Notes: generated by a model not told the origin, from the letters alone. A DNA stretch of 25,655 nucleotides from a virus (IMGVR_UViG_3300047562_002030:1-25655); one strand, 5' to 3'. Numbered from the stretch's first letter, positions 1,932-25,655 are shown. Numbers and translations are program-made.

Positions 1932-1937
1932 TTAGTT

Positions 1938-5633: not shown

Positions 5634-5639
5634 ATCGAT

Positions 5640-5647: not shown

Positions 5648-5677
5648 TATACGCGGTTAATGTAGGAACCAGTATAT

Positions 5678-5962: not shown

Positions 5963-5963
5963 A

Positions 5964-6362: not shown

Positions 6363-6373
6363 AATAATCACTT

Positions 6374-6381: not shown

Positions 6382-6384
6382 TTC

Positions 6385-6896: not shown

Positions 6897-6897
6897 A

Positions 6898-9059: not shown

Positions 9060-10024
9060 AATAACGATCCAATCCTTTTATAATTTTCTTGTATATATTC
9101 TAAAAATCTTTCTCTATTTTTTAAAAGCCTCGAAAATATGTTTTTATATATTAAACTACACTGATCTAAGTCTATGTTTTTTAATACAGAAACGATTCCA
9201 TTCGCACGTTCTTCCCAATTACCATTATCCCACCAGGTTCCGAAAACGTCATCAAACGTATCAAAACCTAGTTCTTTGAGCTGTATATAAATGTTATAGT
9301 CTCCTAAAATCACAAAAGGCCTTAGACCAATAATCGGTTTCCATGTTTTTTCGCTTATAAAAACATCAGTGTGTATGGTAGTTTCAGTGACAACATTTAT
9401 AAAATGTCTATTCCAATTTTTATAATCGCCAAGTGTTACTATATCATTCTTTATGTCCATCTTTCCGTGTACCGCAGCCTCTCCTAACTCTACGATTTCT
9501 GATAAAGACTCTTCGATAACCAAAGAGTTTTCTATTCCTAGACTTACTATTCCAGAATCTAATATATCGTGTTCTCTAAATTTATCTACTAAAAATACTC
9601 TGTGATCATGAGGTTTTCGATTTAGACACATGTATACTTTATCAAACTGAGGTTCTTCTAAATATCGATCATCAAAAAAACCTTCAGGGTTCCGTCTTAT
9701 AAATTCGGCCCAATAGTTGAAATAATATCTTCCTTTGGTATTTCCTATATAAAAAACTTCTTTGGAATTTTCTTTGATATATCGATGGGCGTTCCTGCGA
9801 AGAGGAATACAATTAAAATTTTCCCAGTCTGGGCCGGAGTAGCAGACAGCAATTTTTTCTTTAGATACGATTTTTTCTAAATCTCGATCCTGTTCTATCC
9901 ATGTAGTGTTGACGAACACGTAATCTTCTGTTAGCTGAGATATAATCTTATCTTTAATTTCGGTATCTATATCTCCAATAATATTACCGTGAAATCCCCG
10001 ATCGTAGATCAACGGTTTAGCCAT
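9056..10024 (-). CDS. Putative glycosyltransferase (EKTWKP family, exostosin/GT47-like), copy 1
   Basis: A 322-residue cytoplasmic protein with the C-terminal signature seen in exostosin-like and fucosyltransferase-like enzymes: VVTETTIHTDVFISEKTWKP at 211-230, then RPFVILGD and LKELGFDTFDDV to about 260. Upstream, MCLNRKPHDHRVFLVDKF at 132-149 is a second shared motif. Two neighbours (10009-11304 and 12952-13992) carry the same pair of motifs and are clear paralogs. The family is expected to transfer a sugar from a nucleotide donor, but neither donor nor acceptor can be read. ATG 10024 overlaps the end of the upstream gene by 16 nt; its own stop overlaps the dehydrogenase start by ATGA. The glycosyltransferase call is inference from motif resemblance. 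Confidence 0.6.
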   Translation of the reverse strand: MAKPLIYDRGFHGNIIGDIDTEIKDKIISQLTEDYVFVNTTWIEQDRDLEKIVSKEKIAVCYSGPDWENFNCIPLRRNAHRYIKENSKEVFYIGNTKGRYYFNYWAEFIRRNPEGFFDDRYLEEPQFDKVYMCLNRKPHDHRVFLVDKFREHDILDSGIVSLGIENSLVIEESLSEIVELGEAAVHGKMDIKNDIVTLGDYKNWNRHFINVVTETTIHTDVFISEKTWKPIIGLRPFVILGDYNIYIQLKELGFDTFDDVFGTWWDNGNWEERANGIVSVLKNIDLDQCSLIYKNIFSRLLKNRERFLEYIQENYKRIGSLL

Positions 10025-11304
10025 CTAATAGCATCCTCCCACTTTGATCTTCCTTTTTTTAATACAAAAAGATTTTTATTATGTATTAGTTTTTGTTGGA
10101 AGTTGTTGCTGTAATAAATCGAGTTGAGATCGTTTACATCCATGTTAGACACACGTTCAATATTATCTAACACTAATTTCGTGCGTTTTTTCAAGTCTTG
10201 CTCTTGATCGTAGCTTTCATCAAACAGTTCCGGAAATGTCTCATAACCATGTTTCTTCATGTATTTGAGCGTTCCGGGACAGGCAGCTACGATAAAAGGA
10301 TGATATTGTACAATAGGCTGATATATCTTCTCTGTCAAAAAAAGTACATTTTCTCTATTATGGTTATCAAACGTAGTTTCTGTTACGAAGGTGAAATAGC
10401 TATCCGAAAACATTTTTGGCTGAAGAACCCTTTGATTCAGGCCTTCTCCTATATTCGATGCATCGTGATCTATAATATAGGGACTTCGATCTATGAATTC
10501 TTTCATGTGTATTTTGATATCAAAATGTTCTGCAGGATCAGAATTATATGTTCTTATAATACTGTCGTACATGTCCTCCGAAGGAGTATGATATCTATTC
10601 AGCCAACTATAAAAGAATTTTTCTAGTAAACCCATAGATTTTAACTTTGCAGCAAAATATAATCTATGGTGCCTAGGATTAGCATTTCGAAAAATAAATC
10701 TCTTGTCTCGAACTTTATTCAAATTTCTTACTCTGTCTTCTTCTCGAGGAAACATTTCTTTATAACCGTCGCTTTCTAATATTCGACATTCATTATGATA
10801 AGAAGCTTCGAAACTGTCAAAACCATAAACATTTATAGGAGATAAAAATCTTTTATTTTTCCATTTATTGTAATTTTCCTCAATATTGATATCACCAAAT
10901 ACGAAATAAACTTTTTCCGGAGGAATCGATAGGTCTTTAATACAAAAATCTATTATTTCAATAAACCTAGGCATTGAAAGAGTAAAACCTTCAGTGGGGA
11001 ACCATAATAATAGCTGGAGATTGGTTTTCTTATCTTTAATCAATTTTAGAACATCGATATCAATCCATTCAAATACGTTTCTATATATCAGAGCTTGATC
11101 TATCCATGCTATTTCAATATGATAATATGCCCACTCTCCTTGCCAAGTATTCTTAGTAACTTGTCTTATAGGAATATTTAGGTATCCGCATATTTCTGTA
11201 AACATAGGCATGACGCTTTTGAGCTCTAGGGTTTCTTTAGATCTCATATTAGCAGGTATAGAATTAGGTATATCTACACTAGTCTGGTAAAAAAGAGTTA
11301 CCAA
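10009..11304 (-). CDS. Putative glycosyltransferase (EKTWKP family), copy 2
   Basis: A 431-residue paralog of the proteins encoded on either side. Shared motifs are FIFRNANPRHHRLYFAAKL at about 203-221 and FVTETTFDN ... FLTEKIYQPIV at 306-332, followed by HPFIVAACPGTLKYMKKHGY and FDESYD to 366. It has about 100 extra N-terminal residues with a strand-helix pattern that could be a second Rossmann-like half, as in GT-B enzymes. The only start near the upstream gene end is TTG 11304, with GGAG eleven bases before it; the first in-frame ATG (11247) has no ribosome site and would remove a conserved-looking start. No signal peptide or membrane segment. Acceptor unknown. Confidence 0.6.
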   Translation of the reverse strand: MVTLFYQTSVDIPNSIPANMRSKETLELKSVMPMFTEICGYLNIPIRQVTKNTWQGEWAYYHIEIAWIDQALIYRNVFEWIDIDVLKLIKDKKTNLQLLLWFPTEGFTLSMPRFIEIIDFCIKDLSIPPEKVYFVFGDINIEENYNKWKNKRFLSPINVYGFDSFEASYHNECRILESDGYKEMFPREEDRVRNLNKVRDKRFIFRNANPRHHRLYFAAKLKSMGLLEKFFYSWLNRYHTPSEDMYDSIIRTYNSDPAEHFDIKIHMKEFIDRSPYIIDHDASNIGEGLNQRVLQPKMFSDSYFTFVTETTFDNHNRENVLFLTEKIYQPIVQYHPFIVAACPGTLKYMKKHGYETFPELFDESYDQEQDLKKRTKLVLDNIERVSNMDVNDLNSIYYSNNFQQKLIHNKNLFVLKKGRSKWEDAIRWLNR

Positions 11305-12143
11305 TTTTTAATTTTCTCCATTATAAATTCTGCCCACATTTGCTGAGATCGATCGTTAGGATGAGAATTATCTAATACATCATTGTTTTCTATTACTGCA
11401 AATTCTCCTAAGCCTCCTCGTTTTACAAACTCGTTCTCATAAAAAAGCCAAGACGACCAATCTATCATATCGTACCAATGTCGAGCATTAGGATATTTGT
11501 CGATCACCGGATCGTAAACTATTTCTTTGTTTTTTAATTTATCTATACTTTCTTTGTCTAACCAATTAGATCCTCTTAGAGATTGATTTTTAACTTCATA
11601 CAAATCGTCCCATATGTTCTGCCAACAAGTATTGATCAATCTAATATTAGAAACTTTACAGATAGACTGTAACATGATTATCGACTTACAGGTTTGTATG
11701 AACTGATATTCACAATTAAAATGATTCGCTAGATAATTTTCAAACATCGAATCTAGATCCTTTTGATCGTATTTCCAGAATCCATATCCTCCGCCTGTAG
11801 TTAGCCAGTTAGAATTTTCGTGGCTCTCTGATTTTCCATTGTTTAATATAAAGTTGGTAAAAGAAGTTTTTTCTTTCATCTGTTGATAAATGGTGTCATA
11901 ATTAGGATGCTCTTTGTTTAAGAAAAATTCAAATCTATAAGGATTAGACCACATTACAATACAATAATCATATTTTTCTTTATCAATAAATGCACATAAT
12001 CTATCAACTATAATTTGATTACCCGATGCCATTTCTGCCGTGTTAAAAACATCTATACCTTTGTTCCTTAGGTGATTTGGCCATGCTAATTTTTCTTCCA
12101 CTCGGTGGGCTGAAAAACTGCATCCTCCTGTTATTATTTTCAT
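11298..12143 (-). CDS. SGNH/GDSL-like hydrolase, cytoplasmic
   Basis: A 281-residue protein of the SGNH type, a fold used by esterases, acyltransferases and carbohydrate deacetylases. Block I is ITGGCSFS with Ser9, a block II-like ASGNQ is at 39-43, block III-like MWSNPYRFE at 64-72 carries Asn67, and the end has LDNSHP with Asp258 and His261 as the likely remaining catalytic residues. There is no signal peptide; the catalytic serine sits at residue 9. The gene upstream (12140-12955) is a paralog with the same GGCSF and WSxPxRFE blocks, so the pair arose by duplication. Likely adds or removes an acyl group on a sugar made by this module; that role is inferred from neighbours. Confidence 0.7.
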   Translation of the reverse strand: MKIITGGCSFSAHRVEEKLAWPNHLRNKGIDVFNTAEMASGNQIIVDRLCAFIDKEKYDYCIVMWSNPYRFEFFLNKEHPNYDTIYQQMKEKTSFTNFILNNGKSESHENSNWLTTGGGYGFWKYDQKDLDSMFENYLANHFNCEYQFIQTCKSIIMLQSICKVSNIRLINTCWQNIWDDLYEVKNQSLRGSNWLDKESIDKLKNKEIVYDPVIDKYPNARHWYDMIDWSSWLFYENEFVKRGGLGEFAVIENNDVLDNSHPNDRSQQMWAEFIMEKIKNW

Positions 12144-12955
12144 TGGTACACCCCGGGTAGTTTCGGTAATAAAAAGCTGTCAACAAACAATTGATGAGCT
12201 TCATGGCTAGGATGATTATCATATCCGTCATCCCAGGTATTGATAGTATTCAATGTAAATTCTCTTAGGCCTCCATAATTATTGTCTGTAAAAATCCAGT
12301 TATTCCAGTTGACAGAGTCTTGTAAACTTTTAAACTGGGGTGCGCAGTATTGAACAAATTCTCCAAGGCCTTCTCTAAAAGTCATAAATCTATAGGGCCA
12401 TCCCTTAGATTCGCACATCCACTGTACTTCTAAAATAGCTGTGATAGTATTGTGCCATTGTGCATTTATGTTCCAGAGATATTGTTGAAATCTAACAAAC
12501 GTTTCTACGTATTCTTTGTCTATATGCTTTTTATGTGACCATCTAGTATCATCAGTAACTTTGCTACATTGCATCAACCAAAAATTATTTAAAGTAGACC
12601 GATCTATTTCGCCGGTAATATCACTGTGATAAAACGTTCCTGGATTAAAATCGTTGCCTAGCATCCTATTCGATTGAAAAATATCAGAGACATAGGGAGT
12701 CTCGTTTTCGTGGATAGGAATTTCAAAACGATTAGGACCAGACCACATTATAGTAACATCTGGTAAAAATCCCTTTTCGGCAGCCCTTAGTGCTGTATCA
12801 ATCGCAGCAGTAGCTATGAATCGATTACCGGCTCCAGATTTAGCGCAGTTCTTACTATTTTTAGAATCCGATAAAATGTGTTCTTGAATATAGCGAGCCC
12901 AGCTCCCTGGCATGTCGGTAAAGCTGCATCCTCCAAATATATAAAATTTATTCAT
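12140..12955 (-). CDS. SGNH/GDSL-like hydrolase, cytoplasmic, paralog
   Basis: A 271-residue SGNH-type protein. Block I IFGGCSFT holds Ser11, KSGAGNRF at 39-46 is the block II position, MWSGPNRFE at 70-78 is block III with Asn75, and near the end YDNHPSHEAH carries Asp246, His248 and His251, one residue shorter between Asp and the first His than in the neighbouring paralog. ATG 12955 is used because it overlaps the upstream TGA (ATGA); a TTG two codons earlier is weaker. No export signal. The middle part (90-200) is Trp-rich and differs from the paralog, so substrates probably differ. Confidence 0.7.
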   Translation of the reverse strand: MNKFYIFGGCSFTDMPGSWARYIQEHILSDSKNSKNCAKSGAGNRFIATAAIDTALRAAEKGFLPDVTIMWSGPNRFEIPIHENETPYVSDIFQSNRMLGNDFNPGTFYHSDITGEIDRSTLNNFWLMQCSKVTDDTRWSHKKHIDKEYVETFVRFQQYLWNINAQWHNTITAILEVQWMCESKGWPYRFMTFREGLGEFVQYCAPQFKSLQDSVNWNNWIFTDNNYGGLREFTLNTINTWDDGYDNHPSHEAHQLFVDSFLLPKLPGVYQ

Positions 12956-13992
12956 AGCCAACTACCTATCGTCGATTCGTCAATTTTTAAATTTAAAAAT
13001 TTTCTCTGATTATTTAACAATCTTTCTATGATACTATCTTTAGAATCTATATCTGTATCTAAAAACAATAACAAAGAGTGTACGGCAGCATCCCATCGTT
13101 CTTTTGAATTAGATAAAGAATCGTAACTCTGATCGATGATATCATCAAAAACATCATAACCCATATTTTTAAATGCAGAAACGATTCCTTTCTGTCCTAT
13201 CCATATAGGTAGATGACAATTAGCTATAGCTTTCCAAGATTTCTCCGTTATAAAACAACCTGGTCTAGAATCAGCATAAGTTTCAGTAATCAACGAAACA
13301 CAAGTTTTAGAATATAACTCCGGATCATGAGTCCTGTCATTTTTATGTATATCGTTGTTTGATTTATCCAGTACTAGTGTTTTCTTATTTTGAAATACAT
13401 CAACGGTAAAATTTGGATCTCCTGAATATAGAGATAAAAACTCATTAAAATTTATTTCATTTTCTATCTGATTGTATCTGTTTAAAAAACTTATTTGTCC
13501 TCGATCTAACAATTTTAGATCGTGCAATTTTTGTAAAACATACCAACGATGCACATCAGGTCTTCCGTTGAAGCAAAGGAATTCTTTTTTAATGTCTTTG
13601 ACAAAATTTAATTCTTGTCCATAGAATTGTACTCTAGATTTATAATCGTATGCCCAATAATTATGAAACTTACCTTCAGGAAAATAAAAATTACTATGCA
13701 GAAGTGTTCCAAGCCTCGACAACTGACGATAATTTGCGAGATATTTAAAATCACCTTCTGTATAATGAAATATCACCGGACAATCTTTTGTTATTTTAAT
13801 TTTATGTATTTCGTTGGCAGCTTCTAATATTTCACAGATTTGTATTTCTATAGAGTTGTTCGGCACCGCAGGAGGATCTATATAAACATCAAAATTAGAA
13901 AATTGTTCGATCTGCTTGGCCAAACGTGTAGGTTCCGCTTTTTGAAAATCGGCTTCTACGGTATCAGTCCATATCACAATAGAGAACGCCAT
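12952..13992 (-). CDS. Putative glycosyltransferase (EKTWKP family), copy 3
   Basis: A 346-residue paralog of the two proteins encoded at 9056-11304. The shared motifs are clearest here: FLCFNGRPDVHRWYVLQKLH at 138-157 and LITETYADSRPGCFITEKSW at 234-253, followed by KAIANCHLPIWIGQKG and FKNMGYDVFDDIIDQSYD to 291. The ITEKSWKAI-x(4)-LPI-x-IG run is close to the donor-binding region of exostosin/fucosyltransferase-like enzymes. It is separated from the other two copies by the two SGNH genes, which suggests the cluster grew by duplication of gene blocks. The start overlaps the SPASM radical SAM gene by 19 nt and the end is coupled by ATGA to an SGNH gene. Confidence 0.65.
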   Translation of the reverse strand: MAFSIVIWTDTVEADFQKAEPTRLAKQIEQFSNFDVYIDPPAVPNNSIEIQICEILEAANEIHKIKITKDCPVIFHYTEGDFKYLANYRQLSRLGTLLHSNFYFPEGKFHNYWAYDYKSRVQFYGQELNFVKDIKKEFLCFNGRPDVHRWYVLQKLHDLKLLDRGQISFLNRYNQIENEINFNEFLSLYSGDPNFTVDVFQNKKTLVLDKSNNDIHKNDRTHDPELYSKTCVSLITETYADSRPGCFITEKSWKAIANCHLPIWIGQKGIVSAFKNMGYDVFDDIIDQSYDSLSNSKERWDAAVHSLLLFLDTDIDSKDSIIERLLNNQRKFLNLKIDESTIGSWL

Positions 13993-14828
13993 ATAGCTAC
14001 ACTCTCGAATCCTTGTGCTGTCCCATTAGTGTCGCACCCTTTACATGCGGGAAGATTTTTTCTTTGACCTTTTTCTAGATTTCGACGAACATTCATAAAA
14101 TCTTCATTCATCCATATCTCATCAAATCGTTGATCATGTATGTTGCCAAATGCAGTTTGTTTCCTTGCCCAATCGTTGCAGCATAAACCTACATCGCCGT
14201 TCCAATCGACAAATGCTTTATAAAAAGGTAACCAACAAGGCCTATAAGTCTCCTTAGGAGAAAATATTCCCCCTCGATTGTTAAAATTATATAACTCGAT
14301 TAGTTTTTCTGATCCGTCATCGTAATGATCTCTGATACGAAAAGGTATTTCACAATCTTGCAATAATTTATGCATCTGTGTTACATGTTCAGGACCGTCA
14401 TAACAATCTACTATCAATAGATCTAATCCTGCAGATTTTAATTGACTGTGTGTAATAACGCTTTTGAGCAATCGATCTCCGTTAGTTATCAATTCAGTAT
14501 GGAACTTTTCCGACATCTCTGCGATGATCTCTAATATATCAGGATTCAAAAGAGGTTCTCCGTATCCTGTAATATGAATATCACCTTGATATCCTGCTAG
14601 TAGCAGTTGATCTTTCAGGCGTTGAGCTGTATCTACGGTCATATTTAAATTTCTATTAGGATAGATCAGAGGATCACTACGAGGACAGAAACTACAAGTC
14701 CTATTACAGAGTTCCGTGGGGTTGATTTCTACAGTAGATAAGCCTAATAACCTAGGATTAGACTTATCTAATCCCTTGTATCTTTCATCTCTAAACGTTA
14801 AATGATCTTTGATATCAAAAGTTGACAT
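13974..14828 (-). CDS. Radical SAM/SPASM-domain enzyme
   Basis: A 284-residue radical SAM enzyme with the classical order, core first and SPASM domain last. CNRTCSFC at 41-48 binds the [4Fe-4S]-SAM cluster, and GYGEPLLNP at 88-96 is the GGEP motif with Tyr in place of Gly. Auxiliary-cluster cysteines lie at 198 (PCWLPF), 216-217 (GLCCNDW), 262 and 265 (ACKGC), between which FGNI and IW mark the SPASM signature. SPASM enzymes modify peptides, proteins or sugars, aminoglycoside dehydratases/epimerases included. It is the only one of this layout here; the six related genes upstream have the cysteine domain at the N-terminus instead. The sugar genes beside it favour a sugar or glycoprotein substrate, by inference. 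Confidence 0.85.
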   Translation of the reverse strand: MSTFDIKDHLTFRDERYKGLDKSNPRLLGLSTVEINPTELCNRTCSFCPRSDPLIYPNRNLNMTVDTAQRLKDQLLLAGYQGDIHITGYGEPLLNPDILEIIAEMSEKFHTELITNGDRLLKSVITHSQLKSAGLDLLIVDCYDGPEHVTQMHKLLQDCEIPFRIRDHYDDGSEKLIELYNFNNRGGIFSPKETYRPCWLPFYKAFVDWNGDVGLCCNDWARKQTAFGNIHDQRFDEIWMNEDFMNVRRNLEKGQRKNLPACKGCDTNGTAQGFESVAIWRSLL

Positions 14829-15777
14829 AATGATCTGGTATGATAAGTTCTCTGTTCGTCAATGCATAAGGATTATGTATAATAATAGAATCATCTAAGG
14901 TCCTTGAATATCTGTGATTTACAGAAACAAAAAACAATAACTCAAAGATATCAAAATCTTTCAAAGATCGATCGATATAAATGTAAGGGAGAGTTTTATC
15001 TACTGATTTAGATACAGCATATTCAAACATCTTATTGTTTGATCTAAAAAATTTGCCTGATAAATTTGATCTAATATCGATTTGATGATCTGACCAAATG
15101 TTTAAAGGCAACATCTTACCTATAATATCAATCCATAAATTAAATTTTTCAAATTCCGGCCATGCGTCTGCACCTAAAAATTCATAGGTAAAGTCCGGAT
15201 AATCTCTTCCTATCTGCCTTTGTCCTGCGATCCATAATTCTTCTCGGCTTTCAGTCCTCCACAATATCTTATTAGGACTATGTAAAGCATTTCTTAGATC
15301 TCGTTCATTATCAATCGCTGTATAATTAGATAAACTTTTTAAAAGAGATTGTTCTTTGTGTATATTGATCAAAATTTTAAGAGCTGAACATTTTAAAAAT
15401 TTTGCTGCCACACATCTATTAGTTCCAGGGTGGACTACTATCTGACCATTATCAAGATGATTTATTCCTTTGAGAGGATTAGTCCATCCTCTTTCACAAT
15501 AGCTCTGTATCAACCATAAAACTTTTTCAAAATAATGTTTTATCTTATGCTCTCCGGCAAAAGGAAGAGATAAAACTTCAGAAGTCCAACTGGACAACAT
15601 CTTACGTGCGATGTCTTTATCACTATCAGTAATTTGATTTTGAGATCCCCATTCTGCAATTGCATCATCGCCGATAGTACCGTAATATTTTAATTTTTCT
15701 AACGGATAATCAACTAATGCTACTATCTGAGTATTGAAAAAATTTTCGTCGAAAAAATCTTGTCCAGCAGTGCTCAT
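14815..15777 (-). CDS. Protein of unknown function with ParB/sulfiredoxin-like HPGTNR motif
   Basis: A 320-residue protein I cannot place firmly. The clearest feature is a segment at 98-128 with GWTNPLKGI, then a short strand, then VVHPGTNRCVAAKFL. This resembles the G-x-x-R box of ParB-like/sulfiredoxin-like folds, where the arginine touches phosphate of a nucleotide; some of these use CTP or ATP. The rest (130-320) is mixed helix and strand without Cys clusters or membrane segments. It sits between two radical SAM genes, coupled by ATGA upstream and overlapping 14 nt downstream, so it is likely part of the same pathway, maybe as a kinase or nucleotide-binding partner. That role is a guess. 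Confidence 0.5.
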   Translation of the reverse strand: MSTAGQDFFDENFFNTQIVALVDYPLEKLKYYGTIGDDAIAEWGSQNQITDSDKDIARKMLSSWTSEVLSLPFAGEHKIKHYFEKVLWLIQSYCERGWTNPLKGINHLDNGQIVVHPGTNRCVAAKFLKCSALKILINIHKEQSLLKSLSNYTAIDNERDLRNALHSPNKILWRTESREELWIAGQRQIGRDYPDFTYEFLGADAWPEFEKFNLWIDIIGKMLPLNIWSDHQIDIRSNLSGKFFRSNNKMFEYAVSKSVDKTLPYIYIDRSLKDFDIFELLFFVSVNHRYSRTLDDSIIIHNPYALTNRELIIPDHYVNF

Positions 15778-16940
15778 TTTATTTTTAAAATTTCATTGAG
15801 CTCGGGGAATGTCTCAGCAAAATTTTCTCCTCTAATTTCGTCTAGTGTCAGTGTCATATTTTTAAATTGATCAGGAAGATCAGGAGTCACCGATTTCTCC
15901 ATCATAAAATCTATAACTTCTTTAACTTTTAAGTCATTCCATTCATAACCTGTTTTAGTTTTTTCTAGATGTTCCTTGATTTTTATTTTTGCTTCGTCAG
16001 ATAAAGATTGTATGTTCATGTATTCTGGTCTAAAGATGAAATTAAAATAGAGCTGATCGTCATGAAGACCAAACTGTTTAAACCAATTGATAAATTCGTT
16101 CATATACATAACATTGTATATAGAAACACTATAACAGATAGGAGTCCATATCTTTTTTCTATCTAAAACGCTTTGAAATATAGGAACTAGTTTTTCCCAT
16201 TTTGCAGGATGTCGGAGATATTCAAACTTTTTTTCTATACCGTCTATGCTAAACATTATTTCTACTTTCTTGAAATGGTCCCAAATACTGAACATACGTT
16301 CAGTTGGTTGTATAGATCCATTAGTATTGTAATGGATGATTATATTTTTAGCATATCCTTGATCCACACATTTCTGTAAAATCTCAAAATGTTTTTTGAT
16401 CAAGAAAGGTTCTCCGCCGGTAAAATCAAAATACTCTATATCAGGAATAAATTTTTCTATCTCGTTCCATATAGGGCTTTCTTCTTCTATCCAATAGCTA
16501 TGTAGATTTTGATTGAAAGGTTTTCCGAATATTTTTATCTCGTCTTCTGCCCATTTCGAACTGCTATAGCTGCTACAACTACGGCATTTTAGATTACAAA
16601 CTGTTCCTAGCTTCAAATCAAAGTAGGTTGGGGAGGCTAGAGGTTCATCCCATCTGTGTAATCTATGTTTAAACCAATCGTTGCTGATTTCTCTCTTAGA
16701 CCGCTTGCCGACAGCTTCCATTTCCCAACATGCTGAGCATCCGTCGGGCTCTATTCCTTGTAACATCTGCTGACGCAGATCGTTCATGTAGTCGCTGTTC
16801 CACACTTCCTCGATAGAATGTCGATTTAAATTAGCGTTTTTTCCGTTGATCTTTATAGGTTCTTTGTATAGGCAGCAAGGCTTCGCATTGCCTACAGCAG
16901 TAGCTTCTAGATGGATCCACGGTAATATACATTTTTTCAT
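15774..16940 (-). CDS. N-twitch radical SAM protein, copy 6 (CC type)
   Basis: A 388-residue radical SAM protein with the cysteine-rich auxiliary domain before the core. N-terminal half: Cys4 in CILPWIHLEA, Cys22-Cys23 in AKPCCLY, a SIEEVWNSDYMNDLRQQML helix, and Cys68/Cys71 in GCSACWEME. The core follows with CNLKCRSC (115-122), SSYSSSKW, FTGGEPF at about 172-178 and a MFSIDG strand. The end carries DEIRGENFAETFPEL. From memory this matches the family called twitch domain-containing radical SAM protein, whose members have no known reaction. The twitch/SPASM cysteines probably hold one extra Fe-S cluster. It is separated from its five relatives by the SGNH gene. Confidence 0.85.
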   Translation of the reverse strand: MKKCILPWIHLEATAVGNAKPCCLYKEPIKINGKNANLNRHSIEEVWNSDYMNDLRQQMLQGIEPDGCSACWEMEAVGKRSKREISNDWFKHRLHRWDEPLASPTYFDLKLGTVCNLKCRSCSSYSSSKWAEDEIKIFGKPFNQNLHSYWIEEESPIWNEIEKFIPDIEYFDFTGGEPFLIKKHFEILQKCVDQGYAKNIIIHYNTNGSIQPTERMFSIWDHFKKVEIMFSIDGIEKKFEYLRHPAKWEKLVPIFQSVLDRKKIWTPICYSVSIYNVMYMNEFINWFKQFGLHDDQLYFNFIFRPEYMNIQSLSDEAKIKIKEHLEKTKTGYEWNDLKVKEVIDFMMEKSVTPDLPDQFKNMTLTLDEIRGENFAETFPELNEILKIK

Positions 16941-17725
16941 AACATTTTCTCTATGTAAGGCATGAGATATTCTTCTGCAAGAACCTTGTTTCCCTCATTA
17001 TTGATGTGACTTAAATCAATGTAATAATTATGATTAGGATAAGTTTTATGCAACCATGTTTTCCAACTTTCTTTTATCATAGTAACGTTTGTTTGAAATA
17101 ATTTAAAATATTTCGATGAATAGGCATCATCTGATACTGGTAGATAAGAAAAATATAAAGATCGAATATTTTTTTGTTTTAAATAATTTTCAAAAATTAA
17201 AAGATTCGAAAAAGTTTTTTGAAAATGATATGTGCTGTATGAAACATTTTCTGTTAGTACAGACACAAAAGTACGATACTTTTTATAATTTAAATTTTTC
17301 ATTCCGGACCATTTAAATTCTTCATGTTTAAAATGATCTTCGGCTGAATATGATCCGTCGGTATACTTAGTTTTTACATTATCAGTAACACCGATCAATC
17401 TTTTATACTGACTTTCAGTATCTTCATAATATATAGATTCATCTTTTCCGTCGTAAAATCTGTCTTCTAAAAAATTTTCAAACCCGTCAGTTCCTAAAGT
17501 AATTCTATCAAGAGAGCTAAGTTGAAAAACGACGAAATCTACTGGCATAGATTCTATCAAACTCATCGCTGTAAAGATCGCAAAATCTACATCGGCACCG
17601 CAATGTCCTCCATTGATTACTTGCCATCCATCTAAACGATTTTGCAGGTGAGCCGAGTATGTCTCGTGGCTTTCTAAACCGTGTCCCCAGGTCCAGCTAC
17701 AACCAACCGAGATCATAGTTTTCAT
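16937..17725 (-). CDS. SGNH/GDSL hydrolase, canonical triad, cytoplasmic
   Basis: A 262-residue SGNH hydrolase closer to the standard type than the two copies at 11298-12955. Block I is ISVGCSWTWGHG with Ser10, NGGHCGADVD at about 38-47 holds the block II glycine, FQLSSLDR at 67-74 is the block III position without an obvious Asn, and IDLSHINNEG near the end gives Asp237 and His240. No signal peptide precedes it. The gene looks more AT-rich than its flanking radical SAM genes. It sits between the fifth and sixth N-twitch radical SAM genes with ATGA overlaps on both sides, so the products are made together. Likely an esterase or acyltransferase for a sugar intermediate. Confidence 0.72.
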   Translation of the reverse strand: MKTMISVGCSWTWGHGLESHETYSAHLQNRLDGWQVINGGHCGADVDFAIFTAMSLIESMPVDFVVFQLSSLDRITLGTDGFENFLEDRFYDGKDESIYYEDTESQYKRLIGVTDNVKTKYTDGSYSAEDHFKHEEFKWSGMKNLNYKKYRTFVSVLTENVSYSTYHFQKTFSNLLIFENYLKQKNIRSLYFSYLPVSDDAYSSKYFKLFQTNVTMIKESWKTWLHKTYPNHNYYIDLSHINNEGNKVLAEEYLMPYIEKML

Positions 17726-18918
17726 ATTTGGACTCCTGCTAACTCAGGGAACACTGAACGCCAGCTTTCAGATCGAATACTGTCAATCTTGTCCATATGA
17801 TCAATCATCTTAGGTATCAAGTGCTGCGTATGCGCTGCATCGATAAATTTTATATAACTCCTAAAATCTTCGGCCACTGCCTGTGATCCGTTAGGTATAA
17901 GATATGTTTCGATATAATCGTTGATAGAATTTTTTAACTGCTCTTTGACCGTTAGAGGTAATATTTGAACGCAGAGATGATCAGGATTTACAGCGAAGTT
18001 CAATCTAAAATCATCTATGTGATCGATGATTCCTTGCTCATAAACTTCTTTATGAAAGTCCATAGCGTGAAAACTGTTGAGTACGATCAGCGTATAGTTG
18101 ATTATAAATTTTACATTGGGAGCTCTGGCTTTCATTTGCTGCCTATTATCTATGAACTTCTGCCAGTTCTGTCCTTTACGTATGAGTTCTCCTCGGCTCC
18201 AGCTACCGTCTAAGCTGGCAAACATATCAACTTGCTTGAACTTAGGCCAAAGATCTAACACATTCATAGATTTGTATTTGAACTGACTGCAATTAGAATT
18301 ATATCTTATATGCACATCGTACTTCTTCATCTCATCTAGCTTGTTTAAAATTCTATAGTGTTCTTCCATTATCAGAGGTTCACCGCCTGCAAAATAGATT
18401 TCTTCTACAGTATCAAACAAGGGTTCTATCTGTGCCCACAACTTGTCCGGGTCCGAATCTTTAGGAATATCAATAGGCAACGATCCGTAGAGTTTTTTAG
18501 TATCTTCATACCAACTGCTAGATAACTGAGGACCACACATCCTACATTTAAAATTACAGATATTGCTGAATCTAAAATCCCAATATACGAGATTTAAATG
18601 ATCATAAGATCCATCTTCTCGAGTCTTATCAACTTCAGGTAAATGATGAGCGTATCTTTCATTTAGAGTTTCGCGCATAGATTTTTGACCGGCTGCTTCA
18701 AAAGCGTAGCATCTTTTACAGCTTTCAGATTTTACATTGTTTAGCATATTCAATCTTAGATCTTTCATAGGTTTATCGTTCCAGACTTCTTCTAGAGATT
18801 GTTTAGAAAGATCTCCTACCACATAATTCATAGGTGTGAGACAGCAAGGATAAACCTTTTCATTAGGCCATGTATGCAAATGGATCCACGGAGAAATACA
18901 AAAAACATCATTCTTCAT
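17722..18918 (-). CDS. N-twitch radical SAM protein, copy 5 (CC type)
   Basis: A 398-residue member of the N-terminal twitch radical SAM family. Auxiliary cysteines: Cys7 in FCISPWIHLH, Cys25-Cys26 in VYPCCLT, and Cys67/Cys70 in SCKRCYAFEAAGQKS; between them a SLEEVWNDKPMKDLRL helix. The SAM cluster motif is CNFKCRMC at 121-128 followed by GPQLSSSW, and AGGEPL is at 177-182. The C-terminal signature is DSIRSESWRSVFPEL. Close to copy 6 and copy 4 in layout, most similar by eye to copy 6 in the N-terminal domain. Coupled by ATGA to the SGNH gene downstream and overlapping the upstream copy by 11 nt. Substrate unknown. Confidence 0.85.
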   Translation of the reverse strand: MKNDVFCISPWIHLHTWPNEKVYPCCLTPMNYVVGDLSKQSLEEVWNDKPMKDLRLNMLNNVKSESCKRCYAFEAAGQKSMRETLNERYAHHLPEVDKTREDGSYDHLNLVYWDFRFSNICNFKCRMCGPQLSSSWYEDTKKLYGSLPIDIPKDSDPDKLWAQIEPLFDTVEEIYFAGGEPLIMEEHYRILNKLDEMKKYDVHIRYNSNCSQFKYKSMNVLDLWPKFKQVDMFASLDGSWSRGELIRKGQNWQKFIDNRQQMKARAPNVKFIINYTLIVLNSFHAMDFHKEVYEQGIIDHIDDFRLNFAVNPDHLCVQILPLTVKEQLKNSINDYIETYLIPNGSQAVAEDFRSYIKFIDAAHTQHLIPKMIDHMDKIDSIRSESWRSVFPELAGVQI

Positions 18919-20119
18919 AAATTTTCAACTCTATTATTTTTGCGTAATCGTAAAAGACATTTTCAAATGACTGATTTCTTATCTGATCAAACTTTGCAGT
19001 CATCGATAAAAATTCTTGAAATTTACTTTCATTGCTATTTAAGCTCATAAAATTCTTGACAGAATCATAAAACGGATATACTGATATCTTGTTTAACACT
19101 AATTTCTTTAATCCTATAGGTAGATTTACCACACTGAAATATGCAGGATCCGATACAAAATTGTGGCTTACTGGAATACCAACTTTATTGAAATGATCGT
19201 AAAACTCTTTTAGATAAAACACATTCATCGAAGACACAGTCTGCAGTATAGACATATTGATATTATTATATCTTTGTTTTAGATCGTCGAGCCATTGTAA
19301 AAATTCTTCTATTTTACTCCAATCCGATGGATGTCTAATATAGGTATTTCTTTCTTTTAAATCATCTATGCTGATAGAAAAATCTACACTCAAAAATTCC
19401 TTCCATACCTCTTCGTATAATTGATTTTTTACAGTCCCGTTGGTAGAATAATGTATTTTTATTTTTGATGCAATTCCTCGATCGACTAGCATTTCTAAAA
19501 ATTGTTTGTGCTTGTCTACTAACAGAGGTTCCCCTCCGTTGATGTATATAAATCTTAGATTATCGGTTTTCTTATCTAGATTTTTCCAGAAGTCGTCCTC
19601 TAGCGGCCAATCGAAATATCGTTGATCCGTGTCAAAACTTCCGTGTATTTTAATCCAGTCGGATTTCATTTTTGTACTACTGTAGGGATTACAAGTCCTG
19701 CAGGCTAGATTACAATGATTGCCTAATCTCAGTTCTACGAATTCATAATCCAGCTCTTTTAGGCTACCGTCTTCTTTGGTAATTTCTAATGCTCGCTCGT
19801 GATCGAAATTTAATCTATTAGTCTCTCGCTGTCGCTTGCTTTCGATACCTACCAATTCTAGCTCATAACACTTTCTGCAAGCGGAAGGAATCTCTCCTGC
19901 TAGCATTTTCTTACGGACATCTCTAAACAATTCCGAATTGTGTATCCTATCAAAGTCGTACTTTTCCGAGTTTAATGTCCTAAAAACTTTCTTACCGTTG
20001 ACTAGATCATGAGAATGAGATTCAGCATTGACGCTAGATGATTCGCAGCATAAAGATACTATGCCGTGAGGATGAGTAGCTAGGTGCGTCCAAGGCAAAG
20101 GGCAGAACGTTTTGCTCAT
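18908..20119 (-). CDS. N-twitch radical SAM protein, copy 4 (CC type)
   Basis: A 403-residue member of the same family. Auxiliary cysteines are Cys6 (FCPLPWTHLAT), Cys24-Cys25 (SLCCES) and Cys81/Cys84 (ACRKCYELELVG); a longer loop of about 55 residues separates the pairs, against about 41 in copy 5. The core has CNLACRTC at 136-143, NPYSSTK, then INGGEPLL. The end reads DQIRNQSFENVFYDY, where the FPE of the relatives is FYD. ATG 20119 was chosen because it makes an ATGA overlap with the upstream gene; a GTG four codons earlier is possible. Function unknown beyond SAM-radical chemistry. Confidence 0.85.
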   Translation of the reverse strand: MSKTFCPLPWTHLATHPHGIVSLCCESSSVNAESHSHDLVNGKKVFRTLNSEKYDFDRIHNSELFRDVRKKMLAGEIPSACRKCYELELVGIESKRQRETNRLNFDHERALEITKEDGSLKELDYEFVELRLGNHCNLACRTCNPYSSTKMKSDWIKIHGSFDTDQRYFDWPLEDDFWKNLDKKTDNLRFIYINGGEPLLVDKHKQFLEMLVDRGIASKIKIHYSTNGTVKNQLYEEVWKEFLSVDFSISIDDLKERNTYIRHPSDWSKIEEFLQWLDDLKQRYNNINMSILQTVSSMNVFYLKEFYDHFNKVGIPVSHNFVSDPAYFSVVNLPIGLKKLVLNKISVYPFYDSVKNFMSLNSNESKFQEFLSMTAKFDQIRNQSFENVFYDYAKIIELKIYEE

Positions 20120-21450
20120 ATAGAATTCCACCAGACTAAAACTGAATCGTTAGCAGATAGAATTTCTTCTATAGTCAAAGCATGTCCGTTGTATCCGTCT
20201 TTTCTAAATTCGGCGATAGACTGTAATCTAGCTTTTCCTCTCCGCGCTCCTTCTATATATTGATCAGGATATTTTTCTTCGAATGTGGGTCTCGACAACA
20301 TATTTTCAAATGTTTCTCTATATACTTTTGTTAGGTCCGATTCGAGGCTTTTTTCATAATCGATCAAGTCCATTAAAATTGGATCCAAGATTTTTCGAGG
20401 AAGAGACATAGGACTCATCAATACGCTGCTATCAAAATCGAAAGTGATCTTGACATAACTTTTTACTCCTAGTTCAACTGCTAGATCCATGAGATTTTTC
20501 ATATCTAATAATCCCGGCAATGTTATGGTCACATCTATAACCATAGCATCACTACCGAACTGCGAATTTAAAAATATTCCTTGTTTGAAATAATCCAACC
20601 AACGATCATACTTCAATCCTGTCCTAACGAACTCGGCCACTTTACCGGTGGCATCTTGGCTACAGCACATATTGACATTTTTAAAATGCGGAAGGAGATC
20701 GTAAAGTTTCGTTCCGCTACGTTCTATCAAACTAAGATTAGTATTGTATCTAACAGTTACCTTATGTGCCTGATCGTTATCTACTAGATATTTCATTATA
20801 TCCCAGTGTATCTGATACATTAGAGGTTCACCACCGACCCAATATATCTCCTCAATGCGATCTTCTTTGACCGCATTCCACAGTTCTTGTTCGACTACTA
20901 ATTTTTGAAACTCTTCTACGACTTTTTTGTTTTCTGGAATCATCCATTGATCTACATCAGCTTTCCAGGTATTCATCAATCTTTTTTCTGTTTCCCAGCT
21001 GCTGGATAATTGTTCTCCACACATTCTGCATTTAAAATTACAGAGATTATAGATGCGATAATCAAAACTTATCGGCTTCATAGTAGTATATCCGTTGGGA
21101 TCTGTAGATTCTAAAGCCTGTTTGATTTTATCAGGAAACAGAGTTTCAGTAAAATAATTTCTATACGTATGTAGATTTAATTGTTGAGAATGACAGACTT
21201 CACATTCGGGGATACGATCACCTTGCATAATTCTTTTACGGACACTTTTCATGTGTTCACCGTTCCAATGCTGCTCCAAAGTTATAGGAATATATGTGTT
21301 ACTTTGCGCATCGTCGCCAGAATCGATGTATTGCTTAGTCCAGGTTGCCTGTTCTCTGCTAGCACAGCATATGCGTCGTTCGCTCTGCGGACTGATATAG
21401 GTATGTGTCCACGGTGCTATACAGAAATATTCTCCAACATCTTTATTCAT
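20116..21450 (-). CDS. N-twitch radical SAM protein, copy 3 (CC type)
   Basis: A 444-residue, more divergent member. Auxiliary cysteines: Cys10 (FCIAPWTHTY), Cys28-Cys29 (RICCAS) and Cys83/Cys86 (ECEVCHSQQ). The core has CNFKCRMC at 137-144 with GEQLSSSW, nearly the same as copy 5, and VGGEPLMY. A CCSQDATG segment replaces the SIDG strand of other copies, and the C-terminal region (about 370-444) lacks the R-x-FPE signature. The start is placed at ATG 21450, 8 nt inside the upstream gene, since all relatives begin within ten residues of the first Cys; an ATG at 21468 adds six residues and cannot be excluded. Confidence 0.82.
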   Translation of the reverse strand: MNKDVGEYFCIAPWTHTYISPQSERRICCASREQATWTKQYIDSGDDAQSNTYIPITLEQHWNGEHMKSVRKRIMQGDRIPECEVCHSQQLNLHTYRNYFTETLFPDKIKQALESTDPNGYTTMKPISFDYRIYNLCNFKCRMCGEQLSSSWETEKRLMNTWKADVDQWMIPENKKVVEEFQKLVVEQELWNAVKEDRIEEIYWVGGEPLMYQIHWDIMKYLVDNDQAHKVTVRYNTNLSLIERSGTKLYDLLPHFKNVNMCCSQDATGKVAEFVRTGLKYDRWLDYFKQGIFLNSQFGSDAMVIDVTITLPGLLDMKNLMDLAVELGVKSYVKITFDFDSSVLMSPMSLPRKILDPILMDLIDYEKSLESDLTKVYRETFENMLSRPTFEEKYPDQYIEGARRGKARLQSIAEFRKDGYNGHALTIEEILSANDSVLVWWNSI

Positions 21451-22945
21451 ATTTCGCAAGAGGATCATCTATGTTTTTATTGTCTGGATTTAGGATCCAA
21501 CCTTCTTTTTCTGCCAGGCGTTTAAGCTGTTCGTCATCGTCGTATTGTTTAGTGCTGTTGCCGTCTACTAAGACCTGTATCTTGTCTAGTTTAGTCTCGG
21601 GTATCTGAGCTAGCCAATCTGTTAGAATCTCAGGAAAAACAGAGATATCTTTACCTCGGCGCTGATCGTATTGCCTGTAGAAACTTTTAAAGTCTCTCCA
21701 CAGTGTGATCTTATTACTGGTGCGGCGATGTGGGGCATCTACTACTATGAGATAATCTATTAGACGTTCTATACTGGCACGTTCAAACTCATGCATCAAC
21801 GGACTGTCTTTGTTTGCATCGTACCATGTTTCGAGTTTAGTCCTACAATAATCTTTGATATGGTCCGGCAGTGCTAATGGGCTTTGGAAACTAGGGAAGC
21901 GCAATAGATTTACACTAACCGTAGGATTCTTTCCGTACTTGACTTTCATCTGCATGACTTCGTCAAAAAATTCTGTGATAGAAAAAAGGCAAAGACTGTT
22001 TATAGTCATCATTATATGCACACCGCGACAATGTCCGGCTTCTAGGATACGTGTGATGTTCTTCTTCCACTGTTGATAATCTAATCCATCACGGATGTAT
22101 TCAGCCTGATCTCCCACAGCCTCGCAGCTGGTGTATAGATGAAACTCATGTATGTTTTTAGTCTTTTCTATGAGCTTGTCTACGATATCATCTTTGGCGA
22201 TGAGGTTACTGTTGATAGCGAATCGCATCTTGCTGTTCTGCTCGTTGAACCAATCCAGAAGCTTCCATGTGTTTCCGCTCATCAAAGGCTCGCCGCCTGT
22301 GATACGCAGTTCATCAAGGCTGGTGCTTAGTCCGTTGTCCCACCATTTCCAGAACGCTTGTATATAAGGATTTTCCTCATCATTCTTGTAAGGCTCTACC
22401 CATGATCCATCTTGCTGGAAAGCAGCGGCACCGTCGCTTACAAGATTCTGATAAGCACCGTGTTTTTTAATATCACGTGCCCAGGTGGTACTAAAACTGG
22501 CATTACAGTATGAGCAGGCGAGATTGCAGACACGGTCGAAACTGATTTCTAATGTTTTTAATTCTGCGTCATGATCCCAAGGCTTTTGGTAAATGTCTTC
22601 TAGTTCCTCATCTTTATAAATGATAGTTTTAAAAACACGATCGCTGATATGATCTTTGCCTATGTCCTCTATCTTCCAACAATATTCACACTCTCGAGGA
22701 CGTTCTCCCTCGATCATCATCTTGCGCATCAACTTTTTATGCTTGGTATTATGTATAGCGGTATAGTTGTTTTTGAGTTCTTCTAAGGGAACATTGTGTG
22801 CAGGAGGGTGATGACAGCTAGTTGTTGATCCGCTGCCTAACCATATGGTAGCATTGAGCCACTTAGCTGCACAGAAACTTTCACTCTTTATGTCAATGAC
22901 ACGCTTGCGATAATCTACTAGAGATTCGTTAGGTCGTTTAGGCAT
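21443..22945 (-). CDS. N-twitch radical SAM protein, copy 2 (CHH type)
   Basis: A 500-residue member, paired with copy 1. The first Cys is Cys25 (SFCAAKWLNATIW), but the Cys-Cys pair of the other four copies is CHHPPAH (Cys44, His45, His46); Cys86/Cys89 follow in ECEYCWKIED. The core has CNLACSYC at 140-147, NASFSTTW, and ITGGEPLM. Near residue 430 the common signature RRGKDISVFPE appears, then about 60 extra residues that copy 1 lacks. GC content looks higher than in the sugar genes downstream. AGAGGA precedes ATG 22945, which lies 8 nt inside copy 1. The altered ligand set suggests a different auxiliary cluster or partner. Confidence 0.83.
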   Translation of the reverse strand: MPKRPNESLVDYRKRVIDIKSESFCAAKWLNATIWLGSGSTTSCHHPPAHNVPLEELKNNYTAIHNTKHKKLMRKMMIEGERPRECEYCWKIEDIGKDHISDRVFKTIIYKDEELEDIYQKPWDHDAELKTLEISFDRVCNLACSYCNASFSTTWARDIKKHGAYQNLVSDGAAAFQQDGSWVEPYKNDEENPYIQAFWKWWDNGLSTSLDELRITGGEPLMSGNTWKLLDWFNEQNSKMRFAINSNLIAKDDIVDKLIEKTKNIHEFHLYTSCEAVGDQAEYIRDGLDYQQWKKNITRILEAGHCRGVHIMMTINSLCLFSITEFFDEVMQMKVKYGKNPTVSVNLLRFPSFQSPLALPDHIKDYCRTKLETWYDANKDSPLMHEFERASIERLIDYLIVVDAPHRRTSNKITLWRDFKSFYRQYDQRRGKDISVFPEILTDWLAQIPETKLDKIQVLVDGNSTKQYDDDEQLKRLAEKEGWILNPDNKNIDDPLAKYE

Positions 22946-24311
22946 CCCATTCCTCTTTTAATTTTTTATATTCAGGAAAAACTGAATCAAAATCAGTACC
23001 TCTCCTGCGATCATATTCTTTTATGTATTCTACGAAATATCTACGTCTTTCTCCTACGTCTTCATCTTGATTCAAATAATCACAAAATCGTTTTATCTGA
23101 TCCCATTCTTCTAGATATAATCTAGCGAACTGATGCTTTCTATAATATTTCAACCATGCTTGGCTAGTATCAAAGATCTCTTTGCTGAATCTCTGTCTCA
23201 TATCCTTAGGCAAAAGTTTGACACTGAGGTGAGCGGGCCATCGTAGATAATTGATGCTGAGCGGTATACGGTTGACGTCCATAGTCTCGTTGTAGTCGCA
23301 TCTCAACTGCATGATCAGTTCTACGAATCTCGAAAACGTAGGTAAGCTCAAGATATTGATCGTAGTCATGACTGCTACAGTACACGAAGTCTGCTCTAAG
23401 CATTTTCTCACATTAGCGATCCAGCATTCGTAGTCTAGACCAAATCTAGAATATTCTGCTTGAGCACCTATGCTTTCGAGGCTGGTATAGACATCTATTT
23501 TTTTGACTTTGTCTTTTATATCGTTTATTGCAGATAAGAAACGTTCTATGAGTTTTTCTTCTACTACTAGATTAGTATTGATAGCAATCTCTAGATCGGG
23601 TTGAGGATTTTCTTTTATGTATTCAAAAACTCTCCATGTATCTTTGCTCATGAGAGGTTCGCCGCCTGTTATTCTAAAAACTTTTAAATGCGGCAATGCT
23701 TCGGGAAACCATTTCCAGAAAGCATCAACGTAAGGATTGTCGTCGCTGTGTTTATAAGGATAACGACCCACTTTCTTGTACCACTCAATATCTTGATTGC
23801 TTTCCGGTATAGGATAAGGTCCATATTGTTTGATCTCTTCTAACCACTTGCTGGAAATCTCGGGGCTGCAATAGCTACACTTTAGATTGCAGGCATTTGA
23901 AAAACTGACTTCTAGGTAAGCGGGATAAACATTATCTCGAGGATCCTTAGCGGCGATCTCGTCGAATCTTTCCCAAGCCCAATAGTCCGCTGTCTTATAA
24001 TGACGATCTGAAAAATAATCTTTGTTGAGATCTTCAATCTTCCAGCAGTAATCACATTCTGCAGGGCGTTGTCCCTGTATCATCAATTCACGCTGAGACT
24101 TTTTAAAATTGCTGTTATGTAATGCAGCAGGATCGGCTTCTACTTCATGTACGGGAATCTTATGTGGGCTAGGATGGTGGCAGCTATGATTATATCCGTT
24201 CTGCAGATATAAGGTAGTCTGTAGCCATTTAGCTGTACAGAAACTCGGGCTAACGGCATTGATCTTTTCTCTCTTTTCTTTAAGGATGAATATCTTTTGC
24301 TCGTTGCTCAT
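22938..24311 (-). CDS. N-twitch radical SAM protein, copy 1 (CHH type)
   Basis: A 457-residue member and the closest relative of copy 2: both share SFC-x-AKWL-x(2)-T, then SCHHP, then WKIED after the CxYC pair. Auxiliary ligands here are Cys25, Cys44 with His45/His46, and Cys86/Cys89. The SAM cluster is CNLKCSYC at 141-148 followed by SPEISSKW; ITGGEPLMS follows near 225. The end is RRGTDFDSVFPEYKKL. The gene starts inside the last 32 nt of the repeat-protein gene, so the whole row is translated from one message. Function unknown; the two CHH-type copies were probably the product of one duplication. Confidence 0.83.
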   Translation of the reverse strand: MSNEQKIFILKEKREKINAVSPSFCTAKWLQTTLYLQNGYNHSCHHPSPHKIPVHEVEADPAALHNSNFKKSQRELMIQGQRPAECDYCWKIEDLNKDYFSDRHYKTADYWAWERFDEIAAKDPRDNVYPAYLEVSFSNACNLKCSYCSPEISSKWLEEIKQYGPYPIPESNQDIEWYKKVGRYPYKHSDDNPYVDAFWKWFPEALPHLKVFRITGGEPLMSKDTWRVFEYIKENPQPDLEIAINTNLVVEEKLIERFLSAINDIKDKVKKIDVYTSLESIGAQAEYSRFGLDYECWIANVRKCLEQTSCTVAVMTTINILSLPTFSRFVELIMQLRCDYNETMDVNRIPLSINYLRWPAHLSVKLLPKDMRQRFSKEIFDTSQAWLKYYRKHQFARLYLEEWDQIKRFCDYLNQDEDVGERRRYFVEYIKEYDRRRGTDFDSVFPEYKKLKEEWDA

Positions 24312-25655
24312 ATATGTTTTTTAACCATTCAAAATTATTGATCTTTGCTAGTTCAGAATCTACACCAATGTTATCATAGCCATATTCTCGGCCGGCCTTT
24401 GCGCCATCGATACAGAACTTTCCGTATTGCCTATCTGCTCCTTTAGAACACCATGCCTGTAATCTAAAATCAGTTTCCTCGTCGTAGGTTTCATCTACAG
24501 GTCTGCTGGCTAGTTTCACACACTCTCTGAATGCTGATTTCCAGGTACTGAACTCGTCCGTGTCAAATCTAGTCTTATTAGATACCGTTTCTATCACTTT
24601 AAATCTATCACTGATCGACATGGTCATATCTACAGTATTGGTCTCCATGCCTAAAACTAAATCTCTAGGCAATAATTTCACACCGCCGTAGCCATAAACT
24701 AAATCATTGATAGGATTTAGAGATTGCCATACAAATACTATATCACGCTCGTATCTAGAAACTTCATAATCAAAATTAAAGCCTTCGACGATTTCTGCAT
24801 CGCCATCAACCACATAGAACATATTAGTAGTGGATAATTCTGCTGCGGCTTTGTGTGCATTATGTATGCCTTTTACGCCATGCACTCTTTTCGCTCTCGG
24901 AAATTTCGACCGCAATTTCTCAAAATTTTCATCTGCATTGATTTCATTGTAGCTGATAAAGATAATGTCGTAAGGTCTTAGTTTAGATGCTAGAACTTCA
25001 TACTGTTTCTTTTCTATAGGAAATCTAAAATCGATTTCTTTTTTGGATAATCGTTTATCGTTAGGAACGCAGGCGATTCCATTATAAGTTATTTCATTTC
25101 TAAACATGTGCTGAAACACATGATTCATCTTCCTATCATAAGAATTGTGATGATTAAAATATAGATCGAAATCGAAATCTAAAATTTCAACTTCTTTAGG
25201 GATCATCCAAAACATCTCCATAGAGCTTTTATCGCAGGCATCTATGTAATCTTCATATGTATCTATCGTAAACTTTTCAAAAAGTTTAGGATGTGATGCA
25301 ACAATATCTATTTCTTTTTTCTCTATAAAAAATCTATGATCAAATTCTTTTTTAGTAACTGGCTTAGTTTTAGACATAAGACATAGCCCGTCAAAAAAGT
25401 TTTTGTTTTTAAAAATATGAGTGATGTGCTGATTGTGTTTAGGTACTTGATAATTAAAATCGAAATCATCAAGTATATCTATATCATTCCATATTGCCCA
25501 GAACACATTAGTCTTTGATTTAGAAATAGCATCTAAATATTCTTCGTATGTAGATAAATTAAATTTTTCATAAAGTTTAGGATGTGATGCAACAATATCT
25601 ATTTCTTTCTTGTTAGAAAAAAATCTATAATCAAATTCTTTTTTGGTTACAATAT
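24280..25655 (-). CDS. Repeat protein with GT-A glycosyltransferase-like domain (5' end outside window)
   Basis: The frame stays open to the right edge (457 residues visible); the GTG at 25504-25506 is just an internal valine. It is built of repeated modules of about 97 residues: each starts (T/S)KKE(F/I)D-x-RF, continues ASHPKL-EKF and TYE-Y-DA in the first two, then FW followed by an acidic strand and a FDF turn. The last module is a complete GT-A-like domain: YDIIFISYNE, FPRAKRVHGVKGIHNAHKAA, MFYVVDGDAEI (visible residues about 278-288, a DxD-like metal site) and VYGYGGVKLLPR. In the upstream modules the DGD position reads WND and PKE. I recall this last domain from marine phage proteins. 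Probably a glycosyltransferase with degenerate copies. Confidence 0.7.
   Translation of the reverse strand, partial: IVTKKEFDYRFFSNKKEIDIVASHPKLYEKFNLSTYEEYLDAISKSKTNVFWAIWNDIDILDDFDFNYQVPKHNQHITHIFKNKNFFDGLCLMSKTKPVTKKEFDHRFFIEKKEIDIVASHPKLFEKFTIDTYEDYIDACDKSSMEMFWMIPKEVEILDFDFDLYFNHHNSYDRKMNHVFQHMFRNEITYNGIACVPNDKRLSKKEIDFRFPIEKKQYEVLASKLRPYDIIFISYNEINADENFEKLRSKFPRAKRVHGVKGIHNAHKAAAELSTTNMFYVVDGDAEIVEGFNFDYEVSRYERDIVFVWQSLNPINDLVYGYGGVKLLPRDLVLGMETNTVDMTMSISDRFKVIETVSNKTRFDTDEFSTWKSAFRECVKLASRPVDETYDEETDFRLQAWCSKGADRQYGKFCIDGAKAGREYGYDNIGVDSELAKINNFEWLKNIYEQRAKDIHP
25281..25317. repeat. 37-bp direct repeat, copy A
   Basis: Identical over 37 bp to 25572-25608 and lying 291 bp (97 codons) away in the same reading frame. 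It encodes the KKEIDIVASHPKL part of the repeated module. Flanking sequence on both sides is similar but not identical. Confidence 0.85.
25572..25608. repeat. 37-bp direct repeat, copy B
   Basis: Second copy of the 37-bp identity within the repeat-protein gene. Downstream of it, 25619-25645 again closely matches 25328-25353, with a few changes. The exact identity in a gene whose other modules are diverged points to recent duplication or gene conversion. Confidence 0.85.

Follow-up and report, generated by a model that had tools for sequence, protein, structure and literature searches.

Two previously described systems of T4-like marine phages come closest to the locus considered here. In the genome TARA_ERS488813_N000010, Nishimura et al. 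reported 12 radical SAM genes, which they viewed as genes of Fe-S metabolism (PMC5332604); it resembles the present locus in that a single T4-like phage has numerous genes of this kind. In the host-recognition cluster of the pelagimyophages, a T4-like marine island beside the tail fibers, Zaragoza-Solas et al. found glycosyltransferases (GTs), a UDP-glucose dehydrogenase, and cassettes of radical SAM genes (PMC7029224). Neither paper assigns a function to the radical SAM genes. The family to which the present proteins belong, NCBIfam NF033640 (N_Twi_rSAM), carries a subfamily-level name that gives no reaction, and no functional assignment for it was found in the literature searched, which consisted mostly of papers outside subscription.

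Given these published T4-like radical SAM cassettes, the present locus is therefore a case of an already known type of island. What is new here is the presence of ordered paralogue types, which sets the present description apart from that of the pelagimyophage cluster, together with the tight link of the array to a GT-A gene, the copy numbers, and the relation between twitch and SPASM domain order. The initial annotation had considered seven radical SAM enzymes in one virus to be remarkable. Such rarity is not supported: there are the published genome with 12 of them and the pelagimyophage cassettes, large T4-like records reach 21 family members, and one tandem run has 8.

The window, that is, the whole stretch of DNA analyzed, is an entire linear virus record of 25,655 bases. 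On its minus strand, a continuous run of genes, in which neighbors overlap, extends from 25,653 down to 7,833; the plus strand (1-7849) carries ordinary phage genes, among them one for a QueE-like protein and one for an RNase H/exonuclease of T4-like type. The features are as follows.

24280..25653, minus strand: GT-A glycosyltransferase domain (C-terminal; confident predicted model with fold matches) after repeated N-terminal modules; the ORF leaves the window
22938..24311, minus strand: N-twitch radical SAM protein, type 1; NF033640 337 bits; in a starred clade with L008, L009, and L013
21443..22945, minus strand: N-twitch radical SAM protein, type 2; NF033640 311 bits; in a starred clade
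20116..21468, minus strand: N-twitch radical SAM protein, type 3; NF033640 293 bits; in a clade with L009, L013, and L024 (100/100)
18908..20131, minus strand: N-twitch radical SAM protein, type 4; NF033640 341 bits; sister to L013:11249 (100/99)
17722..18918, minus strand: N-twitch radical SAM protein, type 5; NF033640 388 bits; AlphaFold pLDDT 94; weak placement in the tree
16937..17725, minus strand: SGNH-hydrolase-like protein within the array; N-terminal VGCSW and C-terminal DLSHINNEG motifs
15774..16940, minus strand: N-twitch radical SAM protein, type 6; NF033640 374 bits; groups with L078 and L024 (98/99)
14815..15777, minus strand: protein without a family match in profile searches; overlaps its operon neighbor
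13974..14828, minus strand: radical SAM protein of classical order with C-terminal SPASM; PF04055 at 35-136, PF13186 at 198-266
12952..13992, minus strand: putative GT-B-like glycosyltransferase (GTB1); homologous to 10009 (E 9e-20); TEK motif
12140..12961, minus strand: SGNH-hydrolase-like protein; GGCSF and C-terminal HPSH motifs
11298..12143, minus strand: SGNH-hydrolase-like protein; GGCSF and C-terminal DNSH motifs; its family (SGNH20) also occurs in viral cassettes
10009..11304, minus strand: putative GT-B-like glycosyltransferase (GTB1); one family with 9056 and 12952
9056..10024, minus strand: putative GT-B-like glycosyltransferase (GTB1); clusters with other GTB1 members
7833..9059, minus strand: UDP-glucose/GDP-mannose dehydrogenase-like protein; phrog_9148 332 bits; PF00984 and PF03721
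2795..7849, plus strand: phage block including a T4-like RNase H/exonuclease (3930-4925); phrog_107, PF02739

None of the six N-twitch ORFs contains an internal stop, and all match NF033640 over nearly their full length, at 292.6-388.4 bits against a curated cut-off of 170 bits. The initial annotation had located the six at these coordinates, and the profile search bears out its view of them as one common family rather than unrelated ones. The unusual order that it described, an auxiliary Cys domain followed by the CX3CX2C core, is upheld by the Cys alignment and the profiles, and its reading of CC/CHH in the auxiliary domain is correct, with CHH occurring in 22938 and 21443. Judged by sequence, the six belong to NF033640, with nothing in them that goes beyond that family. 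In 54 aligned viral members, auxiliary C7, C26, C67, and C70 and core C121, C125, and C128 (numbered as in ORF 17722) are invariant, and the CX3CX2C motif is missing in just one of 704 full-length relatives among the matches listed from viral and genome contigs.

The auxiliary domain is N-terminal in all six proteins and C-terminal in 13974, which has the classical order with a terminal SPASM that had been ascribed to it. The SPASM of 13974 aligns with the N-terminal twitch profile of the six (hhalign probability 87, E 4e-6), and this profile also matches the twitch of the aminocyclitol enzyme BtrN, a 2-deoxy-scyllo-inosamine dehydrogenase (E 4e-5 to 3e-4), in which the twitch is C-terminal rather than N-terminal. 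These alignments therefore indicate that a like auxiliary domain stands at opposite ends of the products of neighboring genes. The seven radical SAM proteins counted originally are all present, but the count was too low, as an eighth, the QueE-like protein (1938-2807), is encoded on the other, plus strand. In this protein CX3C is followed by F where the third Cys would stand; roughly 32-36 residues further on there is a conserved Cys, in STGCDSYASW, that may take its place. The same pattern is present in L014:4659 and L046:16379.

In the predicted (AlphaFold) model of type 5, the CX3CX2C radical SAM core has a partial TIM barrel. Its closest structural cores include anSME, SuiB, and SkfB, which modify peptides and proteins, a result that favors the idea that the radical SAM enzymes act like RiPP and sulfatase maturases and modify the tail-fiber polypeptide itself (by epimerization, C-methylation, or cross-links), while the GTs work in parallel on the same fiber. 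We regard this as rather unlikely. The sugar enzymes BlsE (Z 11.5) and DesII (Z 10.9) score similarly, with anSME, BlsE, SuiB, and SkfB all at Z 11-12, and viperin is also similar; because peptide and sugar enzymes have near-equal Z, the fold names no substrate, and deriving one from the type 5 core was ruled out. The SPASM/twitch maturases anSME, SuiB, and SkfB, although alike in core fold, have their auxiliary domain at the other end. In addition, neither a RiPP recognition element nor a precursor was found in the cassette, the window operon included; its genes overlap without gaps, and its accessory genes are those of sugar-nucleotide enzymes. A RiPP maturase cluster proper is ruled out, since successive operon genes overlap from 7833 to 25506 and leave no space for a precursor peptide.

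A tree of 41 proteins intersperses the six window proteins among relatives from other phages instead of grouping them together. Five of them fall within strongly supported groups with viral relatives, whereas support for the position of type 5 is weak. The AU test rejects a single clade of the window proteins (lnL difference 1582, p 7e-48), a result that agrees with the old expansion, as opposed to recent copies, that had been proposed for them. By the same test, recent tandem duplication was ruled out. The six copies do not form an unbroken tandem as first described, since the SGNH-like ORF at 16937 lies between the fifth and the sixth.

The order of the types is stereotyped. In the 75 arrays that remained once those >70% identical had been removed, type 1 stands before type 2 in 36 and after it in 2, with types set by HMMs from the first tree, such that distant members are assigned only approximately and 82 are without a type. 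Type 2 lies ahead of type 3 (26:0), type 5 (29:0), and type 6 (27:0), and type 5 ahead of type 6 (25:2). Relative to types 5 and 6, type 3 may stand before or after. The window order, 1-2-3-4-5-6, occurs in three more viral arrays, two of which carry an extra type 1 in front.

The family is widespread. Two scans of viral contigs yielded at least 548 and at least 596 relatives, and carriers include both T4-like marine phages and large phages of up to 367 kb. Among 25 large viral records picked as family carriers, each has 1-21 copies, and the T4 capsid gene gp23 is present in 19. Loci fetched with the type-5 query mostly contain 5 or 6 copies per ~17 kb, with a maximum of 9 and a longest strict tandem run of 8; as these loci were selected by similarity, the counts are not natural frequencies. 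The cultured phages that match type 5 are Vibrio phages only (22-24% identity); they include QD01, which grows on the laboratory strain V. natriegens Vmax and has one KVP40-type match, and K566 has three clear members near one another. A scan of a genome collection, with the type-5 alignment as the query, gave 80 genome-contig loci, of which six (L093-L096, L140, and L149) contain genes of the phage cassettes and, as they are probably phage contigs, were left out. Cellular arrays include one in a Bacteriovoracaceae MAG, with 8 copies, and one of 6 tandem N-twitch proteins with long N-terminal extensions in an Elusimicrobia MAG (contig L099), at least five of which are fused to TPR arrays (TPR was seen in the five scanned). 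TPR is a protein-binding module, and such fusions would also suit a protein substrate; they thus count against a sugar substrate and in favor of modification of the fiber polypeptide.

For the last 236 aa of 24280, the predicted model (pLDDT 92) matches GT-A enzymes in Foldseek at probability 1.00, with a VIA Z of 11.8 to B4GALNT1, and the fold search thereby settles this C-terminal domain as GT-A. The N-terminal half of 24280-25653 consists of repeated modules (KKEIDxVASHPKLxEKF) that precede the GT-A domain. The GTB1 proteins (9056, 10009, and 12952) are putative glycosyltransferases by virtue of a TEK motif that recalls GT10; in a comparison with GT10, hhalign returned a probability of 3.5 and a short match at the TEK motif only. 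A PDB sequence search with the GT-A (A3) and GTB1 (A4) families gave no credible match.

Comparison of the cassettes shows that the sugar-gene neighborhood recurs in other viral contigs, a check that the initial annotation had proposed. In relatives, the order is tail-fiber genes (phrog_19602 and others), a small conserved gene, two GT8 genes (assigned independently by a glycogenin match, E 2e-7), a GT-A gene, the radical SAM array, and then GTB1/SGNH/carbamoyltransferase genes. Directly upstream of the viral members examined, GT-A is the commonest non-radical-SAM gene (112 cases); type 1, the commonest type, frequently sits right after it, and in 55 of 79 GT-A-anchored viral loci a family member lies no more than 3 kb away. 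Copies of the dehydrogenase-like gene (7833..9059), 60-71% identical, occur in 9 of the 25 large viral records, and other phage cassettes contain nucleotide-sugar epimerases, DegT sugar aminotransferases, carbamoyltransferases, a TPP enzyme, and an APS-kinase-like gene. The locus L043, which is syntenic to the window but carries two radical SAM genes where the window array carries six, has its cassette between tail-fiber genes and a matching opposite-strand RNase H block; the identical gene order on its far side indicates that the window's block at 2795..7849 marks the far border of the island. Because the window stops before the tail-fiber genes, adjacency to them is known from relatives only, where the trait of the pelagimyophage cluster, an island adjoining tail-fiber genes in a T4-like phage, is found. 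The position of tail-fiber genes just upstream would also be expected if the fiber polypeptide were the substrate. Since the gene order is conserved, the single pathway assumed in the initial annotation is plausible.

These observations suggest a model, to which we give about an even chance, in which the operon on the minus strand acts as a glycan-decoration cassette within a T4-like phage's host-recognition island, and the radical SAM enzymes edit its sugars. In favor of it are, besides the neighborhood, the match of the twitch to that of BtrN, the LamG fusions, the cellular copies beside polysaccharide-type exporters, and the lack of space for a precursor; against it are the core that fails to discriminate substrates, the non-glycan neighbors of many Bacteroidota relatives, and the motif basis of the GTB1 assignment. 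The GT-A, putative GT-B-like, SGNH esterase/acyltransferase-like, and nucleotide-sugar dehydrogenase proteins would assemble a short glycan in the cytoplasm of the host and trim it. Each N-twitch enzyme would make one radical edit (epimerization, dehydrogenation, deoxygenation, or similar) on a nucleotide sugar or a glycosyl residue, its core [4Fe-4S] cluster cleaving SAM to yield a 5'-deoxyadenosyl radical and its N-terminal twitch carrying one auxiliary cluster near the mouth of the barrel; separate paralogues would perform separate steps. The glycan would end up on the phage's own tail fibers or, about as likely, on a host surface polysaccharide. That all six enzymes act sequentially on one glycan, with gene order equal to reaction order and a new radical-edited tail-fiber sugar as the product, is improbable.

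A related hypothesis, which overlaps with glycan decoration and differs in the acceptor, is that the cassette remodels the host O-chain or capsule during infection to act against superinfection, the radical SAM enzymes editing those sugars. Modification of the host O-chain has been proposed for the GTs of the pelagimyophage island, which also has radical SAM cassettes (Zaragoza-Solas 2020, PMC7029224), and some cellular relatives adjoin exporters: ABC exporters of polysaccharide type neighbor the family in three cellular cases (arrays or copies), and in one of these GT2s and a Wzt C-terminal domain are present as well. The wider census of cellular neighbors is mixed, and many single-copy Bacteroidota relatives adjoin non-glycan genes. 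Against this hypothesis, the phage cassettes showed no recognizable gene for an exporter, flippase, or polymerase, and the product would therefore have to pass to lipid-linked carriers of the host; adjacency to tail-fiber genes suits decoration of the virion at least equally well. Host remodeling seems somewhat unlikely. The missing exporters are weakly consistent either with a cytoplasmic acceptor, such as new tail fibers, or with host lipid-linked carriers. Just 5 of 1834 viral cassette neighbors have at least 4 predicted TM segments, but this low count is weak evidence, because the KVP40 control region is likewise without such membrane proteins (0 of 78); the use of few membrane proteins as a sign of virion decoration is weakened by this control.

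It could also be argued that the array is a general auxiliary-metabolism set, for the synthesis of a cofactor or modified nucleotide, and lies in the island by chance. One viral member (L073:17398-19686, minus strand) is fused to an N-terminal PP-loop-type domain weakly resembling QueC/Asn synthase (E 0.02-0.04), and in KVP40 a QueC-like gene lies two genes upstream of the family member. The strong neighborhood of GTs and sugar enzymes, repeated over many contigs, speaks against such an explanation and makes it very unlikely.

The order of the types, the GT-A link, and the tail-fiber position in relatives mean that a few Vibrio phages in culture would suffice to put the question of the substrate to the test. 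Were sugars to be confirmed, the family would hold a large store of radical chemistry on sugars and would hint at the way in which marine phages alter what is displayed by their fibers or by their hosts.

Several other features of the viral cassettes were observed. A conserved 359-aa protein (L317:13871-14950, plus strand, and 41 other loci) lies beside N-twitch arrays in 42 viral loci and has no Pfam match. Type-5-like proteins with an additional N-terminal domain of ~150-160 aa occur in L267, L276, L279, L290, L309, L318, L327, and L328; for the domain of L267, Pfam gave an insignificant match only, and for that of L328:3170, Pfam and PDB sequence searches gave none. LamG domains of the same kind occur as fusions in two loci, with a radical SAM protein (L058) and with a GT7 (L051). 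Finally, L058 also encodes (14520-15530, plus strand) a StrB1-like homologue of the inosamine-phosphate amidinotransferase of the streptomycin pathway (1bwd, E 3e-97).
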